This document shows positions 21,445 to 48,936 of a stretch of 62,614 bases of DNA, piece after piece; positions within the stretch are counted from its first letter, which is position 1; each line of letters begins with the position of its first letter. The notes under the pieces were generated by a model that saw nothing but the letters and a program-made list of their open reading frames with translations, was not told the origin of the DNA and made no database searches. This stretch comes from Lactobacillus pasteurii DSM 23907 = CRBIP 24.76 (lineage in GTDB: Bacteria > Bacillota > Bacilli > Lactobacillales > Lactobacillaceae), in assembly GCF_000297025.1 (NCBI RefSeq), contig NZ_CAKD01000005.1:1-62614 (forward strand), written 5' to 3'. Made by a program: the position numbers and the translations under genes.

Positions 21445-21455
21445 GGAGAGAGCTT

Positions 21456-21854: not shown

Positions 21855-21882
21855 TAAACTTAAAAAATCTCCCCCTCTAGAA

Positions 21883-21922: not shown

Positions 21923-21945
21923 TCTAAAAATATAGGTATACAACG

Positions 21946-32003: not shown

Positions 32004-32063
32004 AGAAAGCGCTTTTTTGAGTGATTTATGATATACTTGACTCATAAGTGGTACCAACCAGTT
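32004..32063 (+). promoter_or_regulatory. gntR promoter with cre-like box and GntR operator, site 2
   Basis: AGAAAGCGCTTTTT (32004-32017) resembles cre (12 of 14). An extended -10, TGATATACT, is at 32029-32037. AAGTGGT-ACCA-ACCAGTT (32046-32063) lies over or just after the transcription start. The right half plus TATAA is identical to the PTS promoter site. The placement suggests autoregulation by road-block. Confidence 0.65.
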
Positions 32064-32080: not shown

Positions 32081-32797
32081 ATGGCTAATCCGCTTTATCG
32101 TGAGCTGATGGATCGGCTCGAGAAAGAAATCAAAGAGATGTATGCTCCTAATGATAAACTTCCTAGTGAGCGAGAAATGGTTAAACAATATAACGTTAGT
32201 CGTAGCACGATTCGCCTAGCTTTGGGGGATTTGGAACAAAGAGGAATTATCTATCGTTTACATGGCAAAGGAACTTTTGTTTCATCTTATTTTTGGGCTC
32301 AAGCTAGTTTATCTACCACTTATTCTTTTAGTAAAATGACTAGCAATGGTTTTAAGCCAAGCACAAAAAATATTTCTCTCGGTGTCGTTGCTGCTGATGA
32401 AGAGATTAGCGGTCAATTAAATCTGGAGCTTAACGAGCGGGTCTATGAATTGACGCGCTTGCGTATGGCTAACGGGGAACCATTTTTATATAGTAAAACT
32501 TATCTACCTAAGAAACTTTTTCCTGATTTTGTCTTGGAAGATGTTGAGCAAGATTCCTTATATAACGTTATGCAAAAGAAATATCATCAAATCAGTGTTT
32601 TAGCTTTTGAAGATATTAAGGCAGTTAATTTGGATGCTCGAGTAGCCAAAATTCTCGATGTTAATGAAGGAGATGCGGCGATGAAGATATATCGACGGAC
32701 AATTAATGATAAAAATGTATCTGTTGAATATACCAAGGCTTTGGCTAGAGGAGATAAGTTTATTTATCAGTCAAAACAGTATAACAATATTTATTGA
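32081..32797 (+). CDS. GntR/HutC-family regulator (GnbR/NagR-like)
   Basis: This 238-residue protein has a GntR winged helix (PSEREMVKQYNVSRSTIRLALGDLEQRGIIYRLHGKGTFVSS) followed by a UTRA effector domain (VYELTRLRMANGEPFLYSKTYLPKKLFPD, AMKIYRRTINDKNVSVEYTKALARGDKF). ATG 32081 follows AAAGGAG; the longer frame from 32048 would begin inside the operator. It heads agaS-nagA and probably represses these genes, the PTS operon and lacD, relieved by an amino-sugar phosphate, as GnbR does in L. casei. Confidence 0.88.
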   Translation: MANPLYRELMDRLEKEIKEMYAPNDKLPSEREMVKQYNVSRSTIRLALGDLEQRGIIYRLHGKGTFVSSYFWAQASLSTTYSFSKMTSNGFKPSTKNISLGVVAADEEISGQLNLELNERVYELTRLRMANGEPFLYSKTYLPKKLFPDFVLEDVEQDSLYNVMQKKYHQISVLAFEDIKAVNLDARVAKILDVNEGDAAMKIYRRTINDKNVSVEYTKALARGDKFIYQSKQYNNIY

Positions 32798-32814: not shown

Positions 32815-33984
32815 ATGTTTGAAAAGACAGATGAACAATTGAAGGCACTAGGTGCAGATATTACTACTAGAGAAATTGCTCAACAACCAGATTTATGGCG
32901 CCAAACTTGGGATATTTACCAAGCTAAAAAAGCAGAAATTGAAAGTTTTTTAACTAACATTCATGAAAAGTTTGGCAAGGTTAAAGTTATTTTTACCGGC
33001 GCAGGAACTAGTGCTTATGTTGGTAATACTGTGATGCCATATCTTAGAAAGTATGGAGATCGCACTAAATATAATTTTGAAGCAATTGATACAACTAAAA
33101 TTGTTTCTACTCCAGAATATTATTTAGAAGAAGATACCCCGACTATCTTAGTTTCCTTTGCTCGTAGTGGTAATTCTCCTGAATCTGTCGCAACTGTCGA
33201 AGTTGCTAAGCAAATTGTCAAGAATCTTTACCAAATTGCTATTACTTGTGCTCCAGAAGGGTTCTTGGCTAAGGATTTACAAGATGATCCTAATGGATTG
33301 GTTTTATTAATGCCTGAAAAGTCACTTGATTTAGGTTTTGCGATGACAGGTTCATTTTCATGTATGTCACTAGCAACCTTGCTTGTTTTTGACACTATTT
33401 CAGACGAATTAAAGCATAGTTTTGTAGAACAAATTGCAAAGATGGGTGAGGAAGTAGTAGCTAGAGAATCAGAAATTCAAGCTCTGGTAGATACTGATTT
33501 TGACCGAATTACCTACATCGGTAGTGGTGCACTTGGCGGCTTGGCAGAAGAAGCAAGATTGAAGATTCTTGAATTAACTGCAGGTAAGGTAGCAGCTTTG
33601 TTTGATACTTCAATGGGTCTTCGCCATGGTCCAAAGTCATTCTTGGATGATAAGACAATTGTTTTCGACTTTGTTTCAAACAATACCTACACTCGTCAAT
33701 ATGATTTAGATATTCTTGATGAAATTAAGAATGATGAAATTGTTCCATTAGTAATGGGAGTAGGACAAAATAAGGATGATCAGAACTTTGGTGGTAGATT
33801 CTTCGCCTTTAGCGAAGCAAGATTGTTGCCAGATGCATACATGGCCTTCCCAGACATTATGTTTGCTCAAACAATAGCCTTATTGACCTCAGTTAAAGTT
33901 GGAAATACTCCGGATACGCCATCTCCAACAGGAACGGTTAATAGAGTAGTTAAGGGTGTTACTATTCACGAGTACAGCAAATAG
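32815..33984 (+). CDS. agaS: Tagatose-6-phosphate ketose/aldose isomerase-type SIS protein (galactosamine-6-phosphate deaminase-isomerase)
   Basis: This 389-residue protein has two SIS domains (FTGAGTSAYVGNTVMPYL and SFARSGNSPESVATVE in the first, ITYIGSGALGGLAEEARLKILEL and GLRHGPKSFLDD in the second) in the AgaS subfamily. Relatives turn galactosamine-6-P into tagatose-6-P plus ammonia. The position between gntR and nagA mirrors gnbR-gnbE-gnbF of L. casei. Confidence 0.92.
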   Translation: MFEKTDEQLKALGADITTREIAQQPDLWRQTWDIYQAKKAEIESFLTNIHEKFGKVKVIFTGAGTSAYVGNTVMPYLRKYGDRTKYNFEAIDTTKIVSTPEYYLEEDTPTILVSFARSGNSPESVATVEVAKQIVKNLYQIAITCAPEGFLAKDLQDDPNGLVLLMPEKSLDLGFAMTGSFSCMSLATLLVFDTISDELKHSFVEQIAKMGEEVVARESEIQALVDTDFDRITYIGSGALGGLAEEARLKILELTAGKVAALFDTSMGLRHGPKSFLDDKTIVFDFVSNNTYTRQYDLDILDEIKNDEIVPLVMGVGQNKDDQNFGGRFFAFSEARLLPDAYMAFPDIMFAQTIALLTSVKVGNTPDTPSPTGTVNRVVKGVTIHEYSK

Positions 33985-33994: not shown

Positions 33995-35155
33995 ATGACT
34001 TATTATGTTCATGCAGATAAATTCTTTTTAGAAAATCGCACCGAAAATGGTGGATTTTTAGAGATAACAGATGATGGAAAATTTGGTCTTTATCACCGAG
34101 AAGTACCAAAATCAACTGCCGAAATTCATGATTATTCAGGCAAATGGATTGCTCCAGGATTAGTTGATACTCATATCCATGGCTCAGTAAAAGAAGATGT
34201 TATGAGTAGCGATTGGGAAGGAATCAATCGATTATCTGAGGCTTTGCTTAGTGCAGGAGTAACTTCATGGTTGCCAACAACAATTACTGCAGCTGATGAA
34301 ACTTTGACTAGGATTTGTCAGATGTTTGCCCAGCATCATGGAGAGGAAACTGGAGCTAAGATTCAAGGATTACATTTTGAAGGTCCATTTTTTACAGAGG
34401 AACATGCTGGGGCTGAGAATCCCAAGTATATGTGTGATCCAGACCTTGATTTGTTCAATAAGTGGTTGAATGCTTCGGGAGGATTACTAAAAAAAATCTC
34501 AATGGCACCTGAACGTAAAGGCGCCAGAGAATTTATTCGTGAAGTGACTAAGCAGGGCATAGTTGTAGCTTTGGGACACTCTAATGCAGCTTTTAACGAA
34601 GCTGTAGCTGGTGTTGAAGCAGGAGCTAGGGTATTTACTCATACATTTAATGGAATGCCAGATCCCGCTCACCATGGAGCTACTATTGCCAATGCTGCAA
34701 TGTTATTAAACAACGTAGTTGATGAATTGATTTGCGACGGACATCATGTTGAAGAAGCTCTTGTACGAGGGTTGATCAATGTAGTTGGCCCTGAACATGT
34801 TGCTTTGATTACTGACTGCATGGAAGCAGGGATGATGCCAGATGGAGACTACATGCTGGGAGAATTATCAGTTTATGTTCAAGATGGCATGGCTCGACTA
34901 AAGCAAGATAACAGTCTAGCTGGTAGTATTCTTCAATTAAAAGATGCAGTCAAGAATGTAGTAGATTGGACCATCGTGACGCCAGAAAAGGCAATTATGA
35001 TGGCTTCATATGTTCCTGCTAAAAGTGTAAATATTTTGGCAAGTTGTGGGTCAATAAAGCCAGATAAGGATGCTGACTTTATCGTTTTAAACCCGGATAT
35101 GACGTTAGTTGAAACATATTTGAATGGTGAGTCAAGATATCAAGCTACTAAATAG
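33995..35155 (+). CDS. nagA: N-acetylglucosamine/N-acetylgalactosamine-6-phosphate deacetylase
   Basis: This 386-residue amidohydrolase has a metal-binding HIHG motif (H60, H62) in GLVDTHIHGS, HFEGPFF with the catalytic-site Glu, VALGHSNA and FTHTFNGMPDPAHH, and the catalytic Asp in LITDCMEAG. It removes acetate from amino-sugar 6-phosphates. Next to AgaS the likely substrate is GalNAc-6-P, although GlcNAc-6-P is also possible. The ribosome binding site is weak (GCAGGT). Confidence 0.93.
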   Translation: MTYYVHADKFFLENRTENGGFLEITDDGKFGLYHREVPKSTAEIHDYSGKWIAPGLVDTHIHGSVKEDVMSSDWEGINRLSEALLSAGVTSWLPTTITAADETLTRICQMFAQHHGEETGAKIQGLHFEGPFFTEEHAGAENPKYMCDPDLDLFNKWLNASGGLLKKISMAPERKGAREFIREVTKQGIVVALGHSNAAFNEAVAGVEAGARVFTHTFNGMPDPAHHGATIANAAMLLNNVVDELICDGHHVEEALVRGLINVVGPEHVALITDCMEAGMMPDGDYMLGELSVYVQDGMARLKQDNSLAGSILQLKDAVKNVVDWTIVTPEKAIMMASYVPAKSVNILASCGSIKPDKDADFIVLNPDMTLVETYLNGESRYQATK

Positions 35156-35258: not shown

Positions 35259-36428
35259 ATGAATAATGATGAACTATTGTCAGCCTATCAGTCAGTTTTT
35301 GGTTCAGCTGGAGAAGAAATATATTTTTCACCAGGAAGAATTAATGTTATCGGGGAACACACCGACTACAATGGTGGTCATGTATTTCCAGCTGCAATAA
35401 GCTTAGGTGTTTATGGTGTATATGGAGCAAGAACAGATAAAACTGTTGCAATGTTTTCTAAAAATATTGCAAGTGGTGTGGTTGAATTCGATCTTGAAGA
35501 TGAAACGATCGAAAAAGGCGATCGCTTTTGGATCAACTATTTTAAAGGAATGATAACTTACCTGAGACATAGTAATGATGGCGCCAAAATAAATCATGGC
35601 TTTAACCTGTACATCAATGCGACACTTCCATCAGGAGCAGGTCTTTCATCATCAGCTGCTTTAGAAATGTTAATGGGCAAAATCTTGAAGGATAAGTTTT
35701 TACTAGATGATGATTCAATTTCTATAGCAAAAATGGGCCAAAGAACAGAAAATGAATTTATTGGCTTGAATTCAGGTATTATGGATCAGTTTGCATGCAT
35801 TATGGGTAAAAAGGATGCTGCTATTTTCCTAGATTGCAACAGTATGGAATATGAGTACATGCCGTTGAAATTGGGTGACTATGAAATTGTGATCATGTCG
35901 ACTAATAAAGAACATACACTAGCATCCTCAGCATACAATGATCGAGTTAGAGAATGTCAAAGTGCACTAAAGAAATTGCAAAAGAAATTAGATATTACAA
36001 GCTTAGGTGAACTTGATGCAAAAACTTTGGATGAGTACAGTTATTTGATCAATGATGCCGTTGAATTGAAGCGAGCTCGACATGCAGTTTTGGAAAATGA
36101 GAGAACAATTCGTGCTACCAATGCCATGAAAATGAACGACTTATCACAATTAGGACATCTATTGAATGCTTCACATGTGAGTCTACATTATGACTATGAA
36201 GTTACGGGTGCAGAACTAGATACTCTGGCAGAAAGTGCATGGGCTAACGGGGCAATTGGCGCTAGAATGATCGGCGGAGGATTTGGTGGATCAGCTATCG
36301 CCATTGTAAAGAAAACTGATGCTGCTGAATTTAAAAAGAAACTTACCAAAATTTACTTTGATAAGTTTGGATATAATGCAAGTTTTTATGATGCAGAGTT
36401 GGTTGATGGTACGAAAAGGATTTATTAA
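35259..36428 (+). CDS. galK: Galactokinase
   Basis: This 389-residue GHMP kinase has GRINVIGEHTDYNGG (about 27-40), the ATP-binding LPSGAGLSSSAALE (about 125-138), the catalytic Asp in GIMDQFACIMG, and GARMIGGGFGGSAIAIV near the C-terminus. It makes galactose-1-phosphate for GalT. Placed inside the amino-sugar cluster, it fits release of free galactose from a Gal-containing disaccharide. Confidence 0.96.
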   Translation: MNNDELLSAYQSVFGSAGEEIYFSPGRINVIGEHTDYNGGHVFPAAISLGVYGVYGARTDKTVAMFSKNIASGVVEFDLEDETIEKGDRFWINYFKGMITYLRHSNDGAKINHGFNLYINATLPSGAGLSSSAALEMLMGKILKDKFLLDDDSISIAKMGQRTENEFIGLNSGIMDQFACIMGKKDAAIFLDCNSMEYEYMPLKLGDYEIVIMSTNKEHTLASSAYNDRVRECQSALKKLQKKLDITSLGELDAKTLDEYSYLINDAVELKRARHAVLENERTIRATNAMKMNDLSQLGHLLNASHVSLHYDYEVTGAELDTLAESAWANGAIGARMIGGGFGGSAIAIVKKTDAAEFKKKLTKIYFDKFGYNASFYDAELVDGTKRIY

Positions 36429-36430: not shown

Positions 36431-37903
36431 ATGACAGCAATAGAAGCTTTTGCACAACAAGTAATTGAGAGTGGCAGCTATTCGCCATTAGATCGTGTTT
36501 ATGTAACAAACAAAATAAAGGCATTGGTTGGAGAAGATGATGAAGATATTTCTTCAAGTGATTTGGTTGATCAACTAGTGGCAATTGCTGTCAAGAATAA
36601 AAAAATAGTTGATGATACTACTTCTAAAGAAATTTTAAATGATTTATTGCACGATTTAGCTACGCCAATCCCTAGTGAGATAAATCGTACTTTTTGGGAA
36701 AAGATGGGGACATCTCCCAAAGAAGCCACTGATTGGTTTTACAACTTATGTATAAAGAATAATTACATAAAGAAAAAAGCGATTGATAAAAATATTGTTT
36801 ATGAGGGAACCAGTAGCAAGGGGCATGAATTAGAAATTACTATTAACTTGTCAAAGCCAGAAAAAGATCCACAATCGATAGCTAAAGCTGCTCTTATTAA
36901 AAATAATGATTATCCAAAATGTGCGCTTTGTCTGGAGAATGAGGGATATCTTGGTGATTATGGTAAAAACTCTCGATCGAATTTAAGAATAGTCAGAATG
37001 ACTATTGGTGGACAACAATGGGGGATGCAATATTCTCCCTATGCCTATTTTGATGAACACTGTATATTTTTAGATCAAAAGCATGTTCCGATGGTTATTG
37101 ATCAACAAACTTTAATAAATCTGATCGAGATTGAACGTATGTTACCACACTATTTTGTTGGGTCAAATGCTGACTTGTCAATTGTTGGTGGATCAATGTT
37201 AGCTCATGAACATTATCAAGGTGGTAAACATATATTTCCAATGATGAAGGCAAAAATTAAACAAGTGATAGACTTTCCTACCTTTTCTGATGTGAAATGC
37301 GGGATAGTTGATTGGCCAATGAGCGATTTGCGGTTGATTTCTAGCGATACGAGGCAGCTGATTAAGTTGGCAGATCTAATCATAAATTTCTGGGATCAAT
37401 ATTCTGATCAAACGATAATGATTCACGCTTATGATGAATTTGGTCAAAGGCATCATACTGTTACTCCAATCATGCATCGGGAAGACGATAAATATATTTT
37501 AGATTTAGTTTTGCGTGATAATAATACATCTGATCAGTATCTTTTAGGCATTTTCCATCCTCATGAAGAACTATGGCATATTAAAAAAGAAAATATAGGC
37601 TTGATTGAGGTTATGGGCAGAGCAATATTACCTGGAAGACTTAAAGATGAATTACAAGAAGTGAAGAAGTATTTATTGCATCAGCCTAATGATATGGCAG
37701 AAAAGCATGAAAAATGGGCGAAGCAGTTGTTGCTTGAAAACCACATTACGGCCGATAATGTAGATGAAATAATTAGGCAAGCAGTTATTGAAATATTTGA
37801 AGCAGTTTTGCAATCTGCGGGAGTCTTTAAAGACGATAGTGACGGTAAAAAAGGACAAGATAAGTTTATTGAACAGTTAACCTATAGATTGAATAAAAAT
37901 TAA
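36431..37903 (+). CDS. galT: UDP-glucose-hexose-1-phosphate uridylyltransferase, class II
   Basis: This 490-residue protein belongs to the Firmicute-type GalT family, about 140 residues longer than the E. coli type. Recognisable: PKCALCLENEGYLGDYGKNSRSNLR, YFDEHCIFLDQKHVPM and the active-site HEHYQGG (about residue 258). It starts 2 nt after the galK stop and is translationally coupled to it. Confidence 0.94.
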   Translation: MTAIEAFAQQVIESGSYSPLDRVYVTNKIKALVGEDDEDISSSDLVDQLVAIAVKNKKIVDDTTSKEILNDLLHDLATPIPSEINRTFWEKMGTSPKEATDWFYNLCIKNNYIKKKAIDKNIVYEGTSSKGHELEITINLSKPEKDPQSIAKAALIKNNDYPKCALCLENEGYLGDYGKNSRSNLRIVRMTIGGQQWGMQYSPYAYFDEHCIFLDQKHVPMVIDQQTLINLIEIERMLPHYFVGSNADLSIVGGSMLAHEHYQGGKHIFPMMKAKIKQVIDFPTFSDVKCGIVDWPMSDLRLISSDTRQLIKLADLIINFWDQYSDQTIMIHAYDEFGQRHHTVTPIMHREDDKYILDLVLRDNNTSDQYLLGIFHPHEELWHIKKENIGLIEVMGRAILPGRLKDELQEVKKYLLHQPNDMAEKHEKWAKQLLLENHITADNVDEIIRQAVIEIFEAVLQSAGVFKDDSDGKKGQDKFIEQLTYRLNKN

Positions 37904-38108: not shown

Positions 38109-38159
38109 TTTACAAGGTGGTTATAACCAGTTATAATATAATTGTAGAAAGCGGTTACA
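38109..38159 (+). promoter_or_regulatory. PTS operon promoter with GntR operator, site 3, and cre box
   Basis: TTTACA (38109-38114) and TATAAT (38132-38137) are 17 nt apart. AGGTGGT-TATA-ACCAGTT (38115-38132) fills the spacer. AGAAAGCGGTTACA (38146-38159) resembles cre at 12 of 14 positions just downstream. Dual control by the GntR protein and CcpA is expected. The remaining 37985-38108 is AT-rich with nothing recognised. Confidence 0.75.
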
Positions 38160-38193: not shown

Positions 38194-38679
38194 ATGAACA
38201 TTGTTGGTGTAAGAATAGATGGGAGACTTGTCCATGGACAAGTGGCCAACTTGTGGACACCTAAATTGCAAGTTGACAGAATTATTGTAATTGACGACGC
38301 TGCTTCAACAGATGATATTCAAAAAAGCGGTTTAAGGATGGCAACACCTATGACCACTCGCTTGAGTGTTCTTAACTATAAAGTAGCTGCTGACCATATT
38401 AACAACGAAAGGTATGGTAAGCAAAGAGTATTTCTTGTAGCTAAAAAACCACAAGAATATTTGAAGCTACTTAATGAAGGAGTTCAGCTGAAATCTATTA
38501 ATGTTGGTACTATGTCACAAACTCCAACAACTAAAGCTGTAACTAAACAGATAAATGTTGAGCAGGAGGATATTGAAGTCTTTGATGAGATTGCTAAAAA
38601 AGGTGTTGAATTGACAGCTCAATTGACTCCTAGTGATGAATCACATGACTTTATGAAGTTGTTGGATGCAGTTAGATAG
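38194..38679 (+). CDS. PTS mannose-family EIIB component (GalNAc/galacto-N-biose type)
   Basis: This 161-residue protein has its phospho-histidine (about H14) in GVRIDGRLVHGQVANLW. It is the first gene of a B-C-D-A PTS operon controlled by the same operator as gntR-agaS-nagA, which points to GalNAc or a GalNAc-containing disaccharide as substrate. It differs clearly from the EIIB of the glycosaminoglycan operon. Confidence 0.91.
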   Translation: MNIVGVRIDGRLVHGQVANLWTPKLQVDRIIVIDDAASTDDIQKSGLRMATPMTTRLSVLNYKVAADHINNERYGKQRVFLVAKKPQEYLKLLNEGVQLKSINVGTMSQTPTTKAVTKQINVEQEDIEVFDEIAKKGVELTAQLTPSDESHDFMKLLDAVR

Positions 38680-38693: not shown

Positions 38694-39587
38694 ATGGCTA
38701 TATGGCAGATTATTCTAATCACGTTGTATGCAGGATTCCAAATTCTTGATGAATTAACCCTTTATACAGGCTTTAACACTCCTGTAGGTGCTGGATTTGT
38801 TGTGGGTTTAATCATGGGAGACCTTAAAACCGGTTTGATAATTGGTGCAGGTATGCAATTGATGGTTTTAGGTGTTGGTACTTTTGGCGGTGCTTCAAAG
38901 ATCGACGCAACCATTGGTACTACTTTAGCAACTGCTTTCTCAATAAGTGTTAGCGGGATGAGCCCACAAGTGGCAATTTCTTCTATTGCTGTTCCAGTAG
39001 CTGCTATCATGGTTCAATTGGATATCTTGGCTCGTTTTACCAATACTTTCTTTGCTCACAGAGTTGATCACTACATTGAAACGTTTAACTACAAGGCAAT
39101 TGAGCGTAACTTCTTATACGGTGCTTTGCCATGGTCACTATCAAGAGCAATCCCTGTATTTATTGCTTTAGCGTTTGGTCGTGGTTTAGTTCAAAGTATT
39201 GCAGATGCATTGAACGGAAGCTGGGCATGGCTTGGAACTGGTTTGTCAGTTGCCGGTGCTACTTTACCAGCTGTCGGTTTTGCAATTTTGCTTCGCTACT
39301 TACCAGTTAAGAAGCATGTTGCTTACTTGATTCTTGGCTTTACTATTACTACCTTGCTTACAGTTGTATTTGGTAACATTCAAGCTCTTGGTGGCGGTGT
39401 TGCTGCAGTTAACAAGAACTTCGTTGGTACATTTAACTCATTGCCAATGTTAGCAATTGCTTTGATTGGTTTTGCTTTAGCAATCTTGTACTACAAGAAG
39501 GCTATTAGTTCAACTACAAGTGTTGCTGCAGCTCCAAAAGCAAGCAGTGTGAGTGATGAGGGGGAAATTACTGATGATGAACTCTAA
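38694..39587 (+). CDS. PTS mannose-family EIIC component
   Basis: This 297-residue membrane protein has DELTLYTGFNTPVGAGFVVGLIMGDLKTGLIIGAGMQLMVLGVGTFGGASKIDATIGT, typical of the AgaW/AgaC group. A Ser/Ala-rich tail ends in acidic residues, and its last codons overlap the EIID start. Confidence 0.91.
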   Translation: MAIWQIILITLYAGFQILDELTLYTGFNTPVGAGFVVGLIMGDLKTGLIIGAGMQLMVLGVGTFGGASKIDATIGTTLATAFSISVSGMSPQVAISSIAVPVAAIMVQLDILARFTNTFFAHRVDHYIETFNYKAIERNFLYGALPWSLSRAIPVFIALAFGRGLVQSIADALNGSWAWLGTGLSVAGATLPAVGFAILLRYLPVKKHVAYLILGFTITTLLTVVFGNIQALGGGVAAVNKNFVGTFNSLPMLAIALIGFALAILYYKKAISSTTSVAAAPKASSVSDEGEITDDEL

Positions 39588-40392
39588 TTCAAACTACAAA
39601 ATTACTGATGCTGACATTAAGCAGATTAATAAACGTTCATTATTTGCTTTCCAATTAGGCTGGAACTATGAAAGAATGCAAAATAGTGGCTATTTGTACA
39701 CGATTTTGCCACAACTTCGCAAGATGTACGGTGATGGCACTCCTGAATTAAAAGAAATGATGAAGGCTCACGTACAGTTCTTCAACACTTCGCCATTCTT
39801 TAACACAATTGTAACTGGTATTGACCTTGCTATCGAAGAAAATGAAGGTATTAAAGGAAAAGAATCAGTTAACGGTTTGAAAGTTGGTTTGATGGGACCA
39901 TTTGCCGCAATCGGTGACTCAATCTTTGCTGCTTTGATTCCAGCTGTATTTGGTGCGTTGGCAGCTGCTATGGCTAAAGAAGGAAACCCAACTGGTTTAT
40001 TCATTTGGGTACTTGCTAACATAGCAATATGTGTTTTCCGTTGGAAACAATTACACTTTGCATACGAAAAAGGTGTATCGCTTGTTACTGAAATGAGAGA
40101 TACCTTGAATGCATTGACTGATGCTGCAACTGTTTTAGGTGTGTTCATGGTAGGTGCCTTAGTTGCAACAATGATTAATGTTAAGTTTGGCTGGGTTCCA
40201 AACATTGGTGGAGTTTCTGTAAATATTCAAAATGACTTGGATATGATTATTCCTAAGTTATTACCTGCTGCAATTGTTGGTTTTGTTTACTGGCTTTTGG
40301 GTAAAAAGAATATGACTTCAACCAAGGCAATTCTAATTGTGTTAGTACTTTGTGTTGTTTTAGGTGGACTTGGAGTTTTAACTAAAGCATAG
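39574..40392 (+). CDS. PTS mannose-family EIID component
   Basis: This 272-residue protein has the EIID signature FAFQLGWNYERMQNSGYLYTILPQLRKMYG and VGLMGPFAAIGDSIF. ATG at 39574 (or 39577) follows GAGGGGGAA and overlaps the EIIC gene by 14 bp; the longer open frame from 39553 has no ribosome binding site. Confidence 0.91.
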   Translation: MMNSNSNYKITDADIKQINKRSLFAFQLGWNYERMQNSGYLYTILPQLRKMYGDGTPELKEMMKAHVQFFNTSPFFNTIVTGIDLAIEENEGIKGKESVNGLKVGLMGPFAAIGDSIFAALIPAVFGALAAAMAKEGNPTGLFIWVLANIAICVFRWKQLHFAYEKGVSLVTEMRDTLNALTDAATVLGVFMVGALVATMINVKFGWVPNIGGVSVNIQNDLDMIIPKLLPAAIVGFVYWLLGKKNMTSTKAILIVLVLCVVLGGLGVLTKA

Positions 40393-40520: not shown

Positions 40521-40570
40521 TCGATTAAGAATTTAATTGAATAAAACTAAATATGGAAGAGAGAAGAGTT

Positions 40571-40969
40571 ATGAGTAAAGATTTAATATTGATTAGTCAT
40601 GGACAAATGGCAGCTGGAGTTAAGGAGAGTTGTGAATTGATTATGGGACCACAAGAACATGTTCATGCAGTTTGTCTATTGCCTGAAGAAGGTCCTGAAG
40701 ATTTTGAAGTTAAGTTTAATAAAGAAATTGAAGCTTGTAATGACGATGAAATCTTAGTTTTCGCTGATTTGATGGGTGGCACTCCTGCTAATACTATTAG
40801 TCGTTTGATTATGAGTGGCAAAAAAATTCATTTGATTGTTGGAATGAATTTGGCAATGGTTATTGAATGGGTAAATTCTCAAATGGTAGGTACAGAAGGA
40901 GCTTATGTATTAGCTGCTAAGAACGGTATAGTCGACGTAAATAATTTCTTAGCTAATATGAAAAAGTAG
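40571..40969 (+). CDS. PTS mannose-family EIIA component
   Basis: This 132-residue protein has its phospho-histidine (about H10) in LILISHGQMAAGVKES, plus ADLMGGTPANTI and MNLAMVIEWVNSQM. It is the last PTS gene of the operon, separated from EIID by 178 nt containing the inverted repeat. ATG 40571 is preferred by similarity to the other EIIA; an upstream ATG (40553) would add six residues. Confidence 0.9.
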   Translation: MSKDLILISHGQMAAGVKESCELIMGPQEHVHAVCLLPEEGPEDFEVKFNKEIEACNDDEILVFADLMGGTPANTISRLIMSGKKIHLIVGMNLAMVIEWVNSQMVGTEGAYVLAAKNGIVDVNNFLANMKK

Positions 40970-40982: not shown

Positions 40983-41020
40983 AGGGTAATAGATTTTGAA
41001 TGAAGCTGTTACCCTTTTTT
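40983..41020 (+). terminator. Terminator/attenuator before the hydrolase gene
   Basis: AGGGTAA (40983-40989) pairs with TTACCCT (41009-41015) with T6 following. It covers an ATG at 41000, favouring the later start at 41039 for the next gene. Confidence 0.65.
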
Positions 41021-41038
41021 AGTAAAGGAATATACAAA

Positions 41039-43066
41039 ATGTTCGAGTACTCTCTTAGATATGTTTTTGATATAAGACACAATTCTGCGGAAAAGGATAC
41101 AGCTTTACTCAATTTTGTTAAGAGTGCGCAGATTGATGATGTTTGCTTTATTATCAATGCGGAAGAGTTAAACCATAGTCACTTAACAAGAGAAGAAACT
41201 CAGCCCTGGCTAGATCAAATAAAAGAGCTTCAAGCTAAATTGAAAGATATGGGGATAACTACTAGTTTAAATCCATGGACTACCATCATGCATTCAGATA
41301 GAGGATTTAAAATAGATAATAAAGTTGGATTTGATACTTTTGTTGATATTGAAGGCAATAAGGCTAAAGATATGGCTTGTCCAGCTGATCCTAAATGGCG
41401 CCAATATCTTGTAGAAAGATATACGCAATATGCCTCAATCCACCCTAAGCGTTTGTGGCTAGAAGATGATTTCAGACATTATAATCATTCACCTCTAAAA
41501 TTAATGTGCTTTTGTCCACGACATATGAAGATATATCAGGAAAAATTAGGGAAAAAAGTGACAAGGCATGAATTCGTCAAAGCGTTGCTAGCCCCAGGGC
41601 AGGTAACGGACGAGCGCAAGATTTATTTAAATCAAGCGCGCAAAGAAATGATTGAAGTTGAACAATTGATCGAGAAAGCAGTTCATGAAGTGAGTCCTGA
41701 AACTGATCTAGGGCAAATGACTTCGTTTCCAGATTGGCATGCAGTTGAGGCAAGAGATTGGGCGGGCTTGTTAGATGCTCAAAGAGGCAAAAAAGCGCAA
41801 CACCCCCGAGTAGTTCGTCCACATTTGCCAGCATATAACGAAGTATCCCCGATAATGTATGGCCGAGATTTTGAAAAATATAGCGTCATTACAGCAGCTT
41901 ATGCAGGAGCAAAAGCTGAATTATATCCTGAACTAGAAAATAGTATGTGGACTAGGCAAGTAAAATCCAATAATTTCATCGCCTTTCAAATTATTACTAC
42001 TGCTTTATTGGGGGCTAAGGGTATTTTATTAAATATCTTTGACATGATGGGCAATGGTATTAACGATAGCTGGGATTATAGTCGCTTGTTAAGCCAAATT
42101 AAACCATTTGTCTCAAAATTGGCAGAAATTAGGATGGATGTTGGTGGTTTAGCTGGTGTTAAGGTTTTAGTTGATCAAGATGCTGTTTTTTATGGTCAGA
42201 CTATCACAGGCAAGTTGGTTGATGAATTATTGCCACAGGATAAACAATGGGCTAGTTTATTAAGTTCATTCGGCATAGCGACAACGATATTGCCGATTGA
42301 TCACGCTACTGTTAATAATATTCAAAATGAAACACTAGCAATTTCAGGTCAATTGCTTCGTGGACTGCCTAAGGCAGAAATTAGGTATCTTTTTGCAAGC
42401 AATAAGATTTTACTTGATGGTGAAAGTGTTCAAGCTATCATTGATTTGGGCTTGGCTAATGAACTTTTGCATATTGTCAAAGCTCAATGGTATCAACCTA
42501 AGACGGCTTATCAATCGTTTGAACAAGCAGATGGACGTCAAGTTAACAATGTTAAAGATCCAAGAGTCACTATGTTGCAACATACTGGAAGTTATCTATC
42601 TCTTGATTATGAAAAGGATGCTGACGTACAAGTATGGACCTCAGCTTATAACTCAATTGATCAGAAATTAGGAAATATGATGACGATAGTGGATCATAAG
42701 GCGATACTTTTACCGATAAGTGCAGATTTAAAGTATGGCTGGGAAGCACAATATTCATCTTATAAGGAGGGACTAATTAAGCAGATGCTTGATGAAATTG
42801 GACCAGTTGATTACTTAACGGAGATGCCAAATGTTAAACTGAAGATTGATCGTACGCGTCGTGAACTTTGGATAGCTAACTTTACTTTGGATGAATATGA
42901 ACAAATAAATTGGCATTATACTCTTAAACCAAATCACCAGGTGGAAGTTACTAGATATAAAAAAGATGCATATCAAGTTGATGAAGTTGAAGTAGAATTT
43001 ATGGATGACTTAGCAGTTATTCAGGTAAGGTTGGCACCTCTAGAATTGATAAAAGTAAAATATTGA
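41039..43066 (+). CDS. Putative TIM-barrel glycoside hydrolase (family not assigned) in the GalNAc/galactose cluster
   Basis: This 675-residue cytoplasmic protein has no signal peptide. The N-terminal region looks like an (alpha/beta)8 barrel: SLRYVFDIRHNSAEKD, TTSLNPWTTIMHSDRG, RLWLEDDFRHYNHSPLKLMCFCPRHMKIY and LGQMTSFPDWHAVEARDWAGLLDA. Acidic residues in WLEDDFR and later in AELYPELENSMWTRQ are candidate catalytic sites. The middle (about 380-560) resembles the glutamine-amidotransferase-like domain of GH42-type proteins, and a small beta domain ends the chain. Similar layouts occur in uncharacterised Firmicute proteins. It takes the place of the GH35 phospho-beta-galactosidase of the gnb operon, so a (phospho)galactosidase role is inferred. 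AAAGGA precedes the start. Confidence 0.7.
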   Translation: MFEYSLRYVFDIRHNSAEKDTALLNFVKSAQIDDVCFIINAEELNHSHLTREETQPWLDQIKELQAKLKDMGITTSLNPWTTIMHSDRGFKIDNKVGFDTFVDIEGNKAKDMACPADPKWRQYLVERYTQYASIHPKRLWLEDDFRHYNHSPLKLMCFCPRHMKIYQEKLGKKVTRHEFVKALLAPGQVTDERKIYLNQARKEMIEVEQLIEKAVHEVSPETDLGQMTSFPDWHAVEARDWAGLLDAQRGKKAQHPRVVRPHLPAYNEVSPIMYGRDFEKYSVITAAYAGAKAELYPELENSMWTRQVKSNNFIAFQIITTALLGAKGILLNIFDMMGNGINDSWDYSRLLSQIKPFVSKLAEIRMDVGGLAGVKVLVDQDAVFYGQTITGKLVDELLPQDKQWASLLSSFGIATTILPIDHATVNNIQNETLAISGQLLRGLPKAEIRYLFASNKILLDGESVQAIIDLGLANELLHIVKAQWYQPKTAYQSFEQADGRQVNNVKDPRVTMLQHTGSYLSLDYEKDADVQVWTSAYNSIDQKLGNMMTIVDHKAILLPISADLKYGWEAQYSSYKEGLIKQMLDEIGPVDYLTEMPNVKLKIDRTRRELWIANFTLDEYEQINWHYTLKPNHQVEVTRYKKDAYQVDEVEVEFMDDLAVIQVRLAPLELIKVKY

Positions 43067-43432: not shown

Positions 43433-44263
43433 ATGAACAATAGATCAGCGATACATTTAATTGTTCCAGCTTTTTTAGGAGTTTTGATTTTTACCTTTTT
43501 CCCACTGATCCAAATAGCAATTCCTACTTTCCAAGCCAAAGGGAACGTCTTTGCTGAGTATGTTAGATTTTTACAAAACTCGTACAATCTGCAAGTTATT
43601 GCTAGAACGTTCATGATTTCAGTGATAACTGTCATCATTGTTTTAGTCTTAGGTCTGCCTGTTTCGCTTTGGATTGCAAGACAAAAAGTAGGAGTGAAGC
43701 AAGTTTTAAGTTTGCTGATCTTGTTTCCAATGCTGACTAATGCGGTCGTAAGAAACTTTGCCTGGATAATTATTTTGGGCAAGGATGGAATTTTAAACAA
43801 GTTATTTATGGCCTTGCATATTAGCAATCAGCCAGTATCTATTCTCTATACAAATATTTCAATTGTGATCGGATCTGTTTATCTATTTTTGCCAATTATG
43901 ATTACTTCCCTGATTGGCAGTATTTCGGAATTGAATATTGAGGTTGAAGAAGCTGCTGCAGTTTTAGGTGCAACACCATTGACTAGCTTCTTTAAAGTTT
44001 TAATTCCTCAGCTTACTCCTGGAATTTTTACGGGATGTATCTTAGTTTTTGCCGGAACAATGACAGCATATACGACACCGCAAATTTTAGGTGGTAATCG
44101 TCATTTAGTGATGTCAACGCTGATTTACCAACAAGCAATGACCCTTGGAAATTGGCAGAGTGCTAGTGTGGTTGCAATTGTCTTAATTCTAATCTCGGCA
44201 TTTTCAATGTGGTTAATGAGACGCATCAGCCATATGTTAGATAGGAGGCCAAGTCTTGCTTAA
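43433..44263 (+). CDS. ABC transporter permease, spermidine/putrescine (PotB) type
   Basis: This 276-residue membrane protein has about six helices, with the inner-membrane EAA loop EEAAAVLGATPLTSFFKVLIPQLTPGI (about 178-204) that contacts the ATPase. It is the first gene of a permease-permease-ATPase-binding protein-adenine deaminase operon, with AGGAGG 5' of the start. PotB-type sequence does not prove a polyamine substrate; the context suggests a purine-related ligand. Confidence 0.85.
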   Translation: MNNRSAIHLIVPAFLGVLIFTFFPLIQIAIPTFQAKGNVFAEYVRFLQNSYNLQVIARTFMISVITVIIVLVLGLPVSLWIARQKVGVKQVLSLLILFPMLTNAVVRNFAWIIILGKDGILNKLFMALHISNQPVSILYTNISIVIGSVYLFLPIMITSLIGSISELNIEVEEAAAVLGATPLTSFFKVLIPQLTPGIFTGCILVFAGTMTAYTTPQILGGNRHLVMSTLIYQQAMTLGNWQSASVVAIVLILISAFSMWLMRRISHMLDRRPSLA

Positions 44264-45044
44264 TTCCAAAAACAAAATATTGACCGTAATATCCATAATT
44301 GTATTAGCAATTCTAATGTTGCCATTGATATTGGTTGTTATTACTTCATTCAACACGCAAAATTCAATTTCCTTACCTATCGAAGGCTTTACTTTTAATT
44401 GGTATGCCAATATTTTTCAACAACCAGATTTTATTGCTGGGTTTGAATCAAGTTTATTAGTTGCTTTGATTGCTAGTGGATTGGCCTTAATTATTGGCAT
44501 CCCTGCTGTGTACGCCTTAACCCGGTTCAATGTTCCCAAAGCATCATGGTTTCAATCATTCTTCTTAAGCCCAACTTTGATACCAGAAATTGTTATTGGC
44601 TTTGCACTCTATCAAACCATCGTCATAACCATTAGAATCCCAGTGTTCATTGGCTTAATTATTGGACACTTTCTGCTTTGTTTACCTTATGTAATTCGGC
44701 TGATCACGGCTAGTATGTTGCTTTTAGATCGACATATTGAAGAGGCTGGTTGGGTTTATGGTTGTTCGCCAAGAAAGACCTTCTTTTTATTGGTTTTGCC
44801 GAATATTAAGACTAGCATTATCGCAGCATTCATGATGTGTTTTATTAATTCATTTAACAATATGCCAATTTCGCTATTTATGAATGGACCATCTTTGACA
44901 ATGTTGCCACCTGCGATCCTTAATTATTTGCAAAATAACTATGATCCAACAGTTTCTGCAATTTCAGTACTATTGATGGTCTTCACTGGATTAATGATGT
45001 TTTTAGTAGAAAAGGCGATTGGTCTTAAGAGCCTAACCAAATAA
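44256..45044 (+). CDS. ABC transporter permease, PotC type
   Basis: This 262-residue membrane protein has the EAA motif EEAGWVYGCSPRKTFFLLVLPNIKTSI. It overlaps the first permease gene by 8 bp and pairs with it as a heterodimeric channel. Confidence 0.85.
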   Translation: MLNSKNKILTVISIIVLAILMLPLILVVITSFNTQNSISLPIEGFTFNWYANIFQQPDFIAGFESSLLVALIASGLALIIGIPAVYALTRFNVPKASWFQSFFLSPTLIPEIVIGFALYQTIVITIRIPVFIGLIIGHFLLCLPYVIRLITASMLLLDRHIEEAGWVYGCSPRKTFFLLVLPNIKTSIIAAFMMCFINSFNNMPISLFMNGPSLTMLPPAILNYLQNNYDPTVSAISVLLMVFTGLMMFLVEKAIGLKSLTK

Positions 45045-45054
45045 GGAGAAAAAC

Positions 45055-46098
45055 GTGGCAAATTTAGAAGTAAAAAAATTAGCAAAATCATATGATGGAA
45101 AAAACAAAATTTTGCAGGATATTTCTTTTTCTGTCAAAGATGGAGAGTTGGTTTCGATTTTAGGACCATCAGGATGTGGTAAAACTACAACCTTGCGGAT
45201 TATTGCAGGCTTGCTAGATGAAAGTTCTGGTCAAGTGTTAGTTGATAATAAGGACGTGACGAAGGTTCCAGTATATAAAAGGAATTTTGGAATGGTTTTT
45301 CAAAGTTATGCCTTGTTCCCGCATCTTAATATTTTTGAAAATGTAGCCTTTGGACTAAAAATGCACGGCATGAATAAGTCAGAAATAAAAACAAAAGTTG
45401 AAGAGATCTTGGAAATTACTGGTTTAACTGAATACGTCAAAAAATATCCCGCTCAACTTTCTGGTGGACAACAGCAAAGAGTTTCTTTAGCTAGAGCTTT
45501 GGTGATCAATCCGCAACTTTTGCTAATGGATGAACCACTGAGCAATCTTGATGCAAAATTGCGCTTAAAAATGCGTGAAGAGATTCGTCGCTTACAACAG
45601 AAATTGAAGATGACAGTATTGTTTGTCACTCATGACCAACAAGAATGTTTTGCGATTTCAGATCGAGTTATGATCATGAAGGAAGGCAAGATCGATCAAT
45701 TTGATACTCCGCAAAACATTTTCCATCATCCTAGGACTGAATATGTAGCCCGTTTTATTGGCTATGACAACTTTATTCATTTTGAGCAAACTCAGCTAAT
45801 CGATAAGCATCGTATTCAAGTGAAAGGAAGAGTCTTTGAATCAGTTGATGAATGTAAAAATGCTAAGCTGCTGACAATTCGACCTGAAAATATTGAAATA
45901 ACGAGCCAAGATGAAGCTGAAAATGTTATGTCAGGTACGATTATCAGCAATGAATATCTAGGTCAAAGTTTTAAATATCGGATCAAAACGGACTTAGGTG
46001 AATTTCAAGTTGAGGAAAGTCGCAAAAAGATGCGCTTAGTGGGAGAACAAGTAAGCTTGTTCTTACCAGCTAAACATCTCCATGCACTGTCAGAATAG
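45055..46098 (+). CDS. ABC transporter ATP-binding protein, PotA type
   Basis: This 347-residue protein has Walker A GPSGCGKTT (about 37-45), Q-loop FQSYALFPHL, signature LSGGQQQR (about 136), Walker B LLLMDEPLSNLDAKLR, H-loop VTHDQ, and a C-terminal TOBE-like domain (LTIRPENIEI). It starts with GTG (45055) after AAGGAG. It energises the two permeases. Confidence 0.93.
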   Translation: MANLEVKKLAKSYDGKNKILQDISFSVKDGELVSILGPSGCGKTTTLRIIAGLLDESSGQVLVDNKDVTKVPVYKRNFGMVFQSYALFPHLNIFENVAFGLKMHGMNKSEIKTKVEEILEITGLTEYVKKYPAQLSGGQQQRVSLARALVINPQLLLMDEPLSNLDAKLRLKMREEIRRLQQKLKMTVLFVTHDQQECFAISDRVMIMKEGKIDQFDTPQNIFHHPRTEYVARFIGYDNFIHFEQTQLIDKHRIQVKGRVFESVDECKNAKLLTIRPENIEITSQDEAENVMSGTIISNEYLGQSFKYRIKTDLGEFQVEESRKKMRLVGEQVSLFLPAKHLHALSE

Positions 46099-46125
46099 TT
46101 ATTGGGATTTTTGAAAGGAAATTTT

Positions 46126-47184
46126 ATGAAGCTCAAAAAAATTGGCGTTTTAGCTGCAGGTTTAATTGTTGCTGGAGTTGCAGTGGCTACTTCCGCATGT
46201 TCAGCAGGCTCAAGTTCAAATGGTGGAAAGATCGTTGTTTCAACTTTTGGTCTTTCTACTAAGCAAATGCAAAACGATGTTTTAAAGCCTTTTACCAAAG
46301 AAAATGGCGTTAAGGTATCAACTCAATTTGGCGATAGCTCGACTCGATTGACGCAAATTCAACACAATCCTAATTCAGGCGTTGATGTAATTGAATTAGC
46401 TCAAAACAATGCAGTAACTGGCGCTAAGAAGAAACTTTTTGCCAAACTTGATTTCAGCAAATTGAAGAACTTCAAATATTTATCTAGTGCGCAACAAAAG
46501 TTGGCAAAGCAAACAAACTCTGTTCCTTATACTTTAAATAGTATCGGGATTGTTTATAACCCAAAAAAGGTAAATCTCAAGGAATGGAATCAATTATGGG
46601 ATAAAAATCTAAAAGGAAAGATTGCAATTCCAGACATCACTACTACTTTTGGCCCAGCTATGCTTTACTTAGCAGGTGACCATGCCAAAACAGCCGTAAC
46701 TAGTGATAATGGCGCTGCAGCTTTTAAGGCCTTGAAAGAATTGAAGCCTAATGTAGTTAAGACTTATGCTCAAAGCTCTGACTTAAGCAATATGTTTAAG
46801 ACGGGTGAAATTGAAGCAGCAGTTGTTGGTGATTATGCAGTAGGGATGCTTCAAGCAACTAATCCAAATTTGAAATATGTAGTGCCAGCATCTGGAACTT
46901 ATGCTAACTATGACAATGTAGCTATTTTGAAGAATAGCAAGAATAAGGATGCTGCTTACAAGTATATTGATTTCCGTTTGAGTCAAAAGATTCAAAAGAA
47001 GGTTGCAGGTGCCAAGTCACTAAACAACGCCCCTGTAAATACAGCGGTAAAATTGACTGATAGTGAAGCTGCTAATAAAACCTATGGTGATGTTGCCAAG
47101 AGAGCAAAGACAATTGATTTCTTCTATGTAAATGACCATATGTCTTCATGGATTAATCAATGGAATAAGATTATGAATCAATAG
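46126..47184 (+). CDS. Extracellular solute-binding lipoprotein, PotD type
   Basis: This 352-residue protein has a lipoprotein signal peptide with a lipobox-like VATSAC near residue 25. The mature type-2 periplasmic-binding fold includes IVVSTFGLSTKQMQNDVLKPF and NSIGIVYNPKKV. ATG 46126 follows GAAAGGA; the longer frame from 46102 is unlikely. It would bind the substrate of the upstream ABC permease. Ligand-site residues of true PotD were not compared, so ligand identity is open. Confidence 0.85.
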   Translation: MKLKKIGVLAAGLIVAGVAVATSACSAGSSSNGGKIVVSTFGLSTKQMQNDVLKPFTKENGVKVSTQFGDSSTRLTQIQHNPNSGVDVIELAQNNAVTGAKKKLFAKLDFSKLKNFKYLSSAQQKLAKQTNSVPYTLNSIGIVYNPKKVNLKEWNQLWDKNLKGKIAIPDITTTFGPAMLYLAGDHAKTAVTSDNGAAAFKALKELKPNVVKTYAQSSDLSNMFKTGEIEAAVVGDYAVGMLQATNPNLKYVVPASGTYANYDNVAILKNSKNKDAAYKYIDFRLSQKIQKKVAGAKSLNNAPVNTAVKLTDSEAANKTYGDVAKRAKTIDFFYVNDHMSSWINQWNKIMNQ

Positions 47185-47189: not shown

Positions 47190-47220
47190 AAAGGGGTTGG
47201 CAATAGTCGCCCCTTTCTTT
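47190..47220 (+). terminator. Attenuator between the binding protein and adenine deaminase genes
   Basis: AAAGGGG pairs with CCCCTTT around a 13-nt loop, followed by a T-rich stretch; the next start codon is 12 nt away. Confidence 0.65.
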
Positions 47221-47232
47221 ATAGGTGAGATT

Positions 47233-48936
47233 ATGACCAAGGTAGATTTATTAATAACAAATGCCAACGTGTTCAATGTTTTTCTGCGAAAATTTGAACA
47301 GGTTACTGTGTCAGTTAAGGATGGCAAGTTTTATTGGATTGATCGAGAATTACCAAATATTGAAGCCAAAACGGTGATCGATTTATCTGGAAAATATCTT
47401 ATTCCAGGATTGATTGATGCTCATATGCATATTGATAGTTCGATGACTACTCCAGAAATTATGGGTAAAACTATTGGCAAATATGGAACTACAACTATCG
47501 TAGCTGATGACCATGAAATTACAAATGTTGCTGGAATAGCTGGACTAAAGAACTTTATCAATCAACCATCGCCGATAGATATTTTCTTTGGTATACCTTC
47601 ATCAGTCCCTTCAACAAGTGAAGCACTGGAAACAACAGGTGGAAAAATTGGTGTTCATGAAGTTGAAGAGTTGCTAAAAGATCCTAGATTTATTTGTCTA
47701 GGTGAGGTAATGAACTTTAAAGAGATGACGGCAGAAGGGCCAACTTTGATCAAAGATATTATTAATACCTGCCAAAAAATTCGACCTACAATGCCACTAG
47801 AAGGACATGTTCCAGCCTATTGCGGAGAAGACTTAGCAAAAGTTATTTTTTCAGGTGTAACAACAGACCATACTCAGCAAACGGCTGCTTTAGTTGATGA
47901 AAAGATCCGTAATGGAATGTTTGTTGAGCTTCAGCTTAAATCCATGCATCAAGAAGTGCTAGATACCATTATCAATCATCAATATTTTGAGCATGTAGCC
48001 TTAGTTACGGATGACTCTATGCCAGATCTTTTACTTACTAGTCATTTGAATGCTTTAGTCGAAAAAGCTATTGCAATGGGGATGAAACCAGAGGACGCAA
48101 TTTATATTTCTACTTATACACCTGCTCGGCATATGGGATTATGGGATCGTGGAGCAATTGCGCCAGGAAGAGTGGCTGATTTTGTTGTTTTGGACAATCT
48201 TGAAAAGTTTGCAATTTCTAAAGTTTACAAAAATGGCCAACCATTTTTGACAGACTATCAAGAAGCAGATTATGAATTTTTACCAGAATTAAGACATTCA
48301 GTTATTGCGACTAAATTATCTGAAAAAGATTTAGAATTAACCACCAACTTAGTCCAAAATGGGGCAGTTTTAGCTAATGTCATGCAACTTAATGAAGTGG
48401 GCACATTTACCAACTACGTACAGAAAAAAGTTGAAGTTAAGGATCACAAAGTTCTATGGAAACAAGCAGGCCTGGCGTTAATTCTGGTTCAAGAGCGCTA
48501 TGGAAAGTCTGATGGACGGCAATACCAATTAGGATTGGTGGATCGTGCTATTAGTGGAGATGGCGCAGTGGGAGCTACTTGGGCGCATGATCATCATAAT
48601 TTGATGGTGATGGGTACCAACATTTCAGGCATGATTAAAATCCAGCATAAACTGATTAACCAGCAAGGCGGCTACATTGCTGCCAAAGGGGATACGATTG
48701 TTGCAAATGCTCCACTAGCAATTGGGGGAGTTGTTAGTGATCAACCAATTGAAGTATTAGGTAAACAAATTGGCGAAATTAGACAAACGATGAGAGATTT
48801 GGGATACAAAAATACTAATGAAATTATGTCCTTTTCAACTTTATCGCTATTAGTTTCGCCAAATCTAAAAATCTCAGATAAAGGTTTATTTGAGGTTAAG
48901 AGTCAAAAGAAGGTTGAACTATTTGTAGAAAAATAG
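47233..48936 (+). CDS. ade: Adenine deaminase
   Basis: This 567-residue amidohydrolase deaminates adenine to hypoxanthine and ammonia. It has metal-site HMHIDSS (H64, H66), LGEVMNFKEM (bridging Glu), EGHVPAYCG, DHTQQT and LVTDDSMPDLL, and the C-terminal Ade domain with WAHDHHNLMVMG. The length is typical. The start at 47233 follows GGTGA. Operon position behind an ABC transporter suggests purine-base salvage. Confidence 0.94.
   Translation: MTKVDLLITNANVFNVFLRKFEQVTVSVKDGKFYWIDRELPNIEAKTVIDLSGKYLIPGLIDAHMHIDSSMTTPEIMGKTIGKYGTTTIVADDHEITNVAGIAGLKNFINQPSPIDIFFGIPSSVPSTSEALETTGGKIGVHEVEELLKDPRFICLGEVMNFKEMTAEGPTLIKDIINTCQKIRPTMPLEGHVPAYCGEDLAKVIFSGVTTDHTQQTAALVDEKIRNGMFVELQLKSMHQEVLDTIINHQYFEHVALVTDDSMPDLLLTSHLNALVEKAIAMGMKPEDAIYISTYTPARHMGLWDRGAIAPGRVADFVVLDNLEKFAISKVYKNGQPFLTDYQEADYEFLPELRHSVIATKLSEKDLELTTNLVQNGAVLANVMQLNEVGTFTNYVQKKVEVKDHKVLWKQAGLALILVQERYGKSDGRQYQLGLVDRAISGDGAVGATWAHDHHNLMVMGTNISGMIKIQHKLINQQGGYIAAKGDTIVANAPLAIGGVVSDQPIEVLGKQIGEIRQTMRDLGYKNTNEIMSFSTLSLLVSPNLKISDKGLFEVKSQKKVELFVEK

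Follow-up and report, generated by a model that had tools for sequence, protein, structure and literature searches.

The GHx gene and its cluster

The 62,614-nt stretch of the Lactobacillus pasteurii DSM 23907 = CRBIP 24.76 genome analysed here (contig NZ_CAKD01000005.1; hereafter the window, its genome being labelled G000) carries at 41039-43066, on the forward strand, a gene for a 675-residue protein that we call GHx and that we propose as a putative (phospho-)β-galactosidase resembling glycoside hydrolase family 42 (GH42). GHx is the last gene of a cluster with the order gntR-agaS-nagA-galK-galT-IIB-IIC-IID-IIA-GHx, in which the four II genes encode the enzyme II (EII) components of a phosphotransferase system (PTS) of the sorbose/mannose class. 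A first-pass annotation made from the DNA letters had likened the order gntR-agaS-nagA-(galK-galT)-PTS to the galacto-N-biose (GNB) operon of Lacticaseibacillus casei, and the Pfam and NCBIfam assignments match that order:

29458-30447, forward strand: lacD, tagatose-1,6-bisphosphate aldolase (NCBIfam)
32081-32797, forward strand: gntR, UTRA-domain regulator of 238 residues, likely of the AgaR2/GnbR type (Pfam; the start at 32081 is the probable one)
32815-33984, forward strand: agaS, predicted galactosamine-6-phosphate deaminase/isomerase (TIGR02815, 433 bits, under the cut-off of 529)
33995-35155, forward strand: nagA-type N-acetylhexosamine-6-phosphate deacetylase (TIGR00221, over cut-off)
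35259-36428, forward strand: galK, galactokinase (model match over cut-off)
36431-37903, forward strand: galT, hexose-1-phosphate uridylyltransferase (model match over cut-off)
38194-38679, forward strand: PTS EIIB (Pfam/NCBIfam)
38694-39587, forward strand: PTS EIIC (Pfam/NCBIfam)
39553-40392, forward strand: PTS EIID (Pfam/NCBIfam)
40553-40969, forward strand: PTS EIIA, mannose/N-acetylgalactosamine (GalNAc) class (Pfam/NCBIfam)
41039-43066, forward strand: GHx, 675-residue GH42-like putative (phospho-)β-galactosidase (protein 41039-43063; a longer frame is possible from 41000)

The top NCBIfam models for IIC, IID and IIA are galactosamine or GalNAc PTS models, all under cut-off, and IIB scores best with a general sorbose-class model. 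Read from its first ATG, the GHx frame spans 41000-43066 (688 residues); we favor the ATG at 41039 because AAGGA lies immediately upstream of it and because the start falls within one residue of it in 16 of 17 aligned relatives. Both motifs quoted in the first-pass annotation are present in the protein, and EDDFRHYNH and CFC..H recur in 18/18 aligned rows. Its statement that GH35 and GH42 genes are lacking holds for the window and, in the case of GH35 (PF01301 search), for the rest of the G000 genome; it fails for GH42 genome-wide, one such gene being found on another contig (C21). A kinase at 26527 was considered as LacC and rejected: it fits 1-phosphofructokinase better, and we therefore name no tagatose-6-phosphate kinase.

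Sequence family and predicted fold

The annotation could not place the protein in a family, and our searches bear this out. No Pfam family, PF01301 (GH35), PF02449 (GH42) and PF09508 (GH112) included, is hit by GHx at E≤1, and just two NCBIfam models are, at E 0.05-0.08, neither above chance. The PDB gives no match by GHx sequence or by profile A1, and three chance matches to a defensin by profile A2. When 57 family members were scanned singly against Pfam, no glycosidase family, GH35 and PF02449 included, appeared at E≤0.1. Of the 7997 candidates scored in a search of 5.8 billion proteins, 376 nevertheless qualify as homologues at E≤1e-3, which argues that the open reading frame is not a chance one. 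The best 120 of the 376 are at least 58% identical to GHx, and those with organism names come from Lactobacillus; three of the 120 bear a UniRef label starting "Glycoside hydrolase fa", one of them legible as family 42 N-terminal, which Pfam does not back. Titled records yield nine GHx loci, including L. gigeriorum, L. johnsonii, L. hominis and, outside the genus, Lacticaseibacillus songhuajiangensis (L007 9809-12022).

Beyond these, GHx belongs to a wide family with distant relatives at 28-37% identity. Three of 398 genomes of the class have a match, all from its own genus and G000 among them; 299 genomes of the phylum hold, besides G000, one distant homologue, that of G594 (E 4.3e-118), and two matches with E values of 0.02 and 0.3. 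Of 17 genomes in G594's own class, G594 itself is the only one with a homologue. With the G594 protein as query, 234 proteins are found at E≤1e-3, the named ones among the best 120 being from Oscillospiraceae, Armatimonadota and Spirochaetia. One bridging homologue (L127) matched SAKe6AE (7on6, E 3.1e-12, five stretches), presumably a designed protein; we took this for a repeat artefact, as the window protein and the profiles are without it. A literature search, confined to open-licence PMC, found no paper on the GHx protein.

A structure prediction and fold search, the follow-up that the annotation had proposed, did find a GH42-like three-domain fold. In a confident model (predicted local distance difference test score, pLDDT, 93.6), GHx is predicted to adopt the full GH42 β-galactosidase architecture of barrel, trimerisation domain and β domain. 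Its top full-length hits in the fold search are to GH42 and other enzymes with three domains, and a family missing from the matches listed is not thereby dismissed; a viral fold library gave nothing informative (best E 1.3e-5). In profile comparisons with hhalign, the GHx family aligns to 16 GH42 proteins at E 0.0025 (probability 12%), to three GH112 proteins at E 0.087 and to eight GH35 proteins at E 0.35. GHx shares with GH42 β-galactosidases such as BiBga42A (8ibt) the predicted three-domain fold, the colinear stretch VD..G....CP and a CxC after strand β4; it differs in lacking a PF02449 match and the Asn-Glu of β4, and identity is ∼12%. The GH164 β-mannosidase Bs164 (6t5o; template modeling score, TM, 0.60 to the GHx model) likewise combines a GH42-like fold with a sequence family of its own, although it has a Glu acid/base and acts on β-mannosides (PMC7105311). 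Two segments of the gene correspond to the candidate active site:

41453-41503, forward strand: codons of residues 139-155 at the end of predicted strand β4 (138-141), the predicted acid/base region, with D143-D144, R146, N149 and H150 invariant in 57/57 rows of alignment A2
41930-41932, forward strand: codon of Glu298 on predicted strand β7 (298-300), the predicted nucleophile, invariant in 57/57 rows of A2

The candidate residues sit on the predicted strands appropriate to clan GH-A, β4 and β7, and we predict a retaining mechanism in which Asp143 or Asp144 would act as acid/base and Glu298 as nucleophile. A search for a phosphate site brought out the Lactobacillus-specific basic residues R138, H147, H255, R365, K402 and K600, none of them decisive.

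Association with the PTS, GH35 in other genera and a shared palindrome

We followed GHx and the PTS through 60 genomes of relatives, 37 from the same genus and 23 from other genera. GHx is present in 17 of the 37, with a broken frame in G036, and those 17 are also the genomes that have IIC at ≥72% identity; among the IIC matches listed for the remaining 20, none exceeds 51% identity, and G024 and G026 have no match. A tree built on rpoB fragments from 32 of the 37 genomes (G001, G024, G029, G032 and G034 gave no usable hit) places seven changes of GHx, at least five on well-supported branches, and GHx and PTS co-vary in 5/5 independent pairs. The control trait was GH42, scored as present in the 12 genomes whose matches are substantial; the hits of G024, G032 and G036, being partial or fragmentary, were left uncounted. 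It changes with the PTS in the same direction in 0.6 and in the opposite direction in 1.1 of five pairs. Some absences may reflect incomplete assemblies, such as that of G006, which lacks both GHx and PTS and is 79% complete. The class search contributed two further genus genomes, found through GHx and checked for the PTS afterwards, in these alone: G260 has both intact, and in G328 both survive as remnants on separate contigs, one GHx stretch carrying seven in-frame stops and the IIC stretch four. The IIB and IID frames of G036 are also short or split, for which sequencing error is a possible cause. The distance between GHx and IIC is at most 10 kb in 11/17 genomes and ∼100-125 kb in G011, G012, G016, G031 and G036; G034 has the two on different contigs. 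L. johnsonii ATCC 33200 (L003, G012) combines GHx, a gntR-agaS-nagA-PTS operon and a GH42 gene, with no GH112 and no true GH35.

In other genera the same PTS is accompanied by GH35. IIC at ≥57% identity occurs in 5 of the 23 genomes (G058, G056, G047, G054 and G039), and each has a GH35 gene in its PTS cluster, directly 5' of IIB-IIC-IID in four and, in G056, ∼9 kb from IIC beside another IIB. G053 and G057 (IIC 48-49%) also have GH35 in the stretch, together with GH88. GHx was found in none of these seven genomes, nor in G042 or G044. Within its own genus, a true GH35 is found in G032 only, on another contig; weak PF01301 hits in G006, G007, G012, G020 and G030 overlap GH42 genes there and were not counted.

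The intergenic regions of the window contain the following candidate regulatory elements:

29371-29388, forward strand: AgaR2/GnbR-type operator candidate before lacD, 0 mismatches
32046-32063, forward strand: AgaR2/GnbR-type operator candidate before gntR, 0 mismatches
38109-38137, forward strand: promoter-like TTTACA-17-TATAAT before the PTS genes, 11/12 letters (25 such sites in the stretch against 23.4 expected, so a consensus match only)
38115-38132, forward strand: AgaR2/GnbR-type operator candidate AGGTGGTTATAACCAGTT, lying within the promoter-like site just listed (motif class from PMC4694137, letters defined in this analysis)
40983-41020, forward strand: terminator-like hairpin with six T, a possible attenuator, between IIA and GHx (-13.8 kcal/mol; unlisted by the terminator scan, whose loop limit it exceeds)

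The AgaR2/GnbR-type pattern was written after the three window sites had been seen, so that their count (five sites at ≤2 mismatches, where 20 mononucleotide shuffles average 0.5) is no independent test; independent support comes from its occurrence before gntR or IIB elsewhere, for example in L107, L108, L110, L119 and L122-L124. Where GHx lies outside the PTS operon, a scan of 16 upstream regions gave one such site, at two mismatches (G013). A hairpin of different sequence occupies the same IIA-GHx position in L. gigeriorum (L001).

A further link is seen in the gasseri/johnsonii-type genomes, where GHx stands apart. The gntR-agaS-nagA-IIBCDA operon, read in G011, G012, G016 and G036, contains no GHx, GH35, GH42, GH3 or GH31 match, and the five frames downstream of these operons encode DUF4767, lipoprotein and acyltransferase products and no glycosidase. 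The palindrome AACTTAATATANTAAG (≤1 mismatch) precedes both GHx and IIB in 6/6 genomes (G011, G012, G016, G031, G034 and G036), which are close relatives and not six independent cases; among the genes examined, GHx alone shares it with the PTS promoter. Elsewhere in the six it occurs once each in G011 (C1:23737) and G031 (C1:23680), in both with one mismatch and ∼4 kb from GHx. In G058, which has three hits in all, one copy is found 28-43 bases upstream of the GH35 frame; the window genome has none. G011 and G012 encode, close to the PTS operon, a second GntR that shares 46-47% identity with the GntR proteins encoded divergently from GH35 in G058, G039 and G054, and 26-27% with the window GntR. 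AgaR1 sites are described as preceding hydrolase and PTS genes in a system divided between AgaR1 and AgaR2 (PMC4694137). The second GntR and the positions of the palindrome fit this split, and we infer that AACTTAATATANTAAG is the AgaR1 site.

Proposed role and alternatives

Our best reading is that GHx represents a new GH42-like family of (phospho-)β-1,3-galactosidase. We think it probable that it is a cytoplasmic β-galactosidase of GH42-like fold, likely splitting GNB (Gal-β1,3-GalNAc), probably as the 6-phosphate, after PTS import. The broader version, in which GH35 has been displaced within one regulon in L. johnsonii, L. gasseri and bee-gut lactobacilli, we rate only slightly above even. 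The annotation's suggestion that GHx replaces GH35 in a pathway of gnb type draws support from its co-occurrence with the PTS, the joint decay of the two in one genome, the GH35 gene in the PTS cluster of other genera, the shared palindrome and the GH42-like fold. The mannose-class PTS would import GNB, and perhaps lacto-N-biose (LNB), with phosphorylation; GHx would then hydrolyse the β-1,3 bond to give, presumably, galactose and GalNAc-6-phosphate. Galactose could pass through GalK-GalT into the Leloir pathway, and GalNAc-6-phosphate through NagA, AgaS, a tagatose-6-phosphate kinase (none named in the window) and LacD to triose phosphates. A GntR repressor bound at 38115-38132 may control the PTS genes and, where transcription continues past IIA, GHx as well; read-through of the hairpin would yield less enzyme than transporter.

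This proposal addresses a published gap. GnbG of L. casei acts on LNB and GNB, whose phosphorylated forms are possibly its natural substrates (PMC6109692), and LNB may likewise be a second substrate of GHx. L. gasseri and L. johnsonii are reported to use both sugars without GnbG homologues, so that other glycosidases must act (PMC7366668); in the excerpt of PMC6109692, gnb homologues go undetected in the two species and undiscovered pathways are suggested. The use of GNB and LNB without a GnbG homologue makes GHx a strong candidate for the missing enzyme. The gnb operon of L. casei resembles the window in its GntR, AgaS, NagA-type deacetylase, mannose-class PTS and single cytoplasmic glycosidase; it differs in that GnbG is a GH35 enzyme, whereas GHx has no GH35 sequence match, in the galK-galT inside the window's cluster, and in the detachment of GHx from the PTS operon in the gasseri/johnsonii group. 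Two GntR regulators and a hydrolase and PTS in one regulon are also features of the BgaC-gadVWEF operon under AgaR1/AgaR2 in Streptococcus and relatives (PMC4694137), with BgaC where GHx stands here. If correct, the assignment names one gene for the missing GNB/LNB step of L. gasseri and L. johnsonii, gives a first function to a multi-phylum family for which our scans turned up neither a Pfam nor an NCBIfam model, and supplies a further example of a GH42-like barrel with an unusual acid residue. We take the streptococcal BgaC to be a GH35 enzyme.

Several observations weigh against the galactosidase assignment. Strand β4 ends in Asp-Asp in GHx and in Asn-Glu in GH42 (NE[YF] in 16/16 GH42 proteins), and an Asp-Asp pair is also carried by some substrate-assisted hexosaminidases. 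The highest TM among the listed fold matches (0.65) belongs to the α-L-fucosidase 6tvk, presumably of family GH151. In G056 the gene adjoining IIC-IID (L112 9484-11457, between gntR and IID-IIC) is not GH35 and encodes GHL6 and GH42M domains with a 6tvk match at E 8e-139, and GH35 is also found, with no close IIC, in G042 and G044. The galK-galT pair, on which the annotation based its argument for free galactose, is part of the cluster in the window and is absent from it in 20 other neighbourhoods and in L001; nagA was not found in the cluster stretches of eight genus genomes (G001, G017, G019, G023, G029, G032, G033 and G035). L. songhuajiangensis has GHx and no gene of this PTS within the 19.7 kb examined. 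The sign test on the five independent pairs gives p 0.0625, which is its floor, and the hairpin separates GHx from IIA. Hits to AACTTAATATANTAAG total 3-4 per genome, the GHx site being counted once per strand, and the reversed pattern gives 1-3; their number is not unusual, and their presence at both promoters in each genome is. AgaR1 is reported to have no in vivo role in S. suis (PMC4694137), and the GNB/LNB phenotypes are taken from later papers and not from the original study.

The Asp143-Asp144 pair raises the alternative of a substrate-assisted β-N-acetylhexosaminidase, as among GH84-like enzymes, that cuts GalNAc-β-Gal or N-acetylglucosamine (GlcNAc)-β1,3-GalNAc to give GalNAc-6-phosphate. 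We consider this unlikely: the invariant Glu298 on β7 would be superfluous in such a mechanism, GH42 and other enzymes with three domains head the full-length fold matches, GHx occupies the slot of the galactosidase GH35, and the reported phenotype concerns Gal-headed sugars (PMC7366668). No more probable in our view is a glycosidase of the same pathway acting on another GalNAc or GlcNAc sugar, be it fucosylated, α-linked or a glycosaminoglycan-derived disaccharide. Speaking for it are the 6tvk match and its homologue beside IIC-IID in G056, the import of fucosyl-GlcNAc through a mannose-class PTS in L. casei (PMC6109692), the glycosaminoglycan cluster upstream in the window and the GH31-like gene adjoining GHx in three genomes. 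Yet the G056 fucosidase-like protein has no detectable sequence similarity to the GHx family (hhalign E 0.26), the PTS stretches of four gasseri-type genomes, to which this search was confined, contain no PL8 or GH31, and the phenotype on record is for GNB/LNB (PMC7366668).

A GH112-like inverting phosphorylase, which would convert GNB or LNB and phosphate to galactose-1-phosphate for galT, would explain the galT in the window's cluster; its presumed substrates are the same, and 2zuw_C, a GH112 enzyme of distantly similar structure, is among the fold matches of the first GHx model (TM 0.49, E 9.4e-8). The catalytic acid of GH112 is Asp. We nonetheless regard it as very improbable, since galK would have no use, Glu298 is kept, a PTS usually delivers phosphorylated sugar and the profile similarity is weaker than to GH42; GH112, which has its own PF09508, occurs in 0/37 genus genomes. 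The cleavage of GNB/LNB in L. johnsonii and L. gasseri might instead fall to GH1 6-phospho-β-galactosidases or to GH42, with GHx unrelated or accessory. Two characterised LacG enzymes exist in L. gasseri (from a title in the reference list of PMC5940811), full-length GH42 is present in G000, G012, G016 and G031, and the GH42 enzyme BiBga42A has been assayed on LNB (PMC10688820). Against this, the excerpt of PMC5940811 has L. casei LacG inactive on unphosphorylated LNB and GNB and does not list the 6-phosphates, GH42 does not track the PTS, and the palindrome is shared by GHx alone among the genes examined; we find this route doubtful, a shade more so than the hexosaminidase, and prefer the GH42-like galactosidase.

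Other genes of the window and of related loci were recorded alongside. In L. gigeriorum (L001) a GH3 gene (448-1821) lies between nagA and the PTS, in place of galK-galT, and a GH31 gene (7701-9905) is found downstream of GHx; in L119, L122 and L126 a protein of 941-953 residues resembling GH31 (24-25% identity) directly adjoins GHx. The 5' end of the window (190-4418) encodes a LicT-type antiterminator, a β-glucoside PTS IIABC and a GH1 protein nearest to 6-phospho-β-glucosidase models, under their cut-offs. The glycosaminoglycan-use cluster (10826-25599) comprises a heparinase II/III-like protein, GH88, KduI, KduD, a PfkB-type sugar kinase, a 2-keto-3-deoxy-6-phosphogluconate (KDPG) aldolase, a polysaccharide lyase family 8 (PL8) protein with YSIRK and SlpA domains, and PTS genes assigned by similarity only. 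Downstream of GHx, the genes at 43433-47184, whose order is conserved in L001, resemble what we take to be a spermidine/putrescine ABC transporter, and they are followed at 47197-48936 by a gene for an adenine deaminase-like protein.
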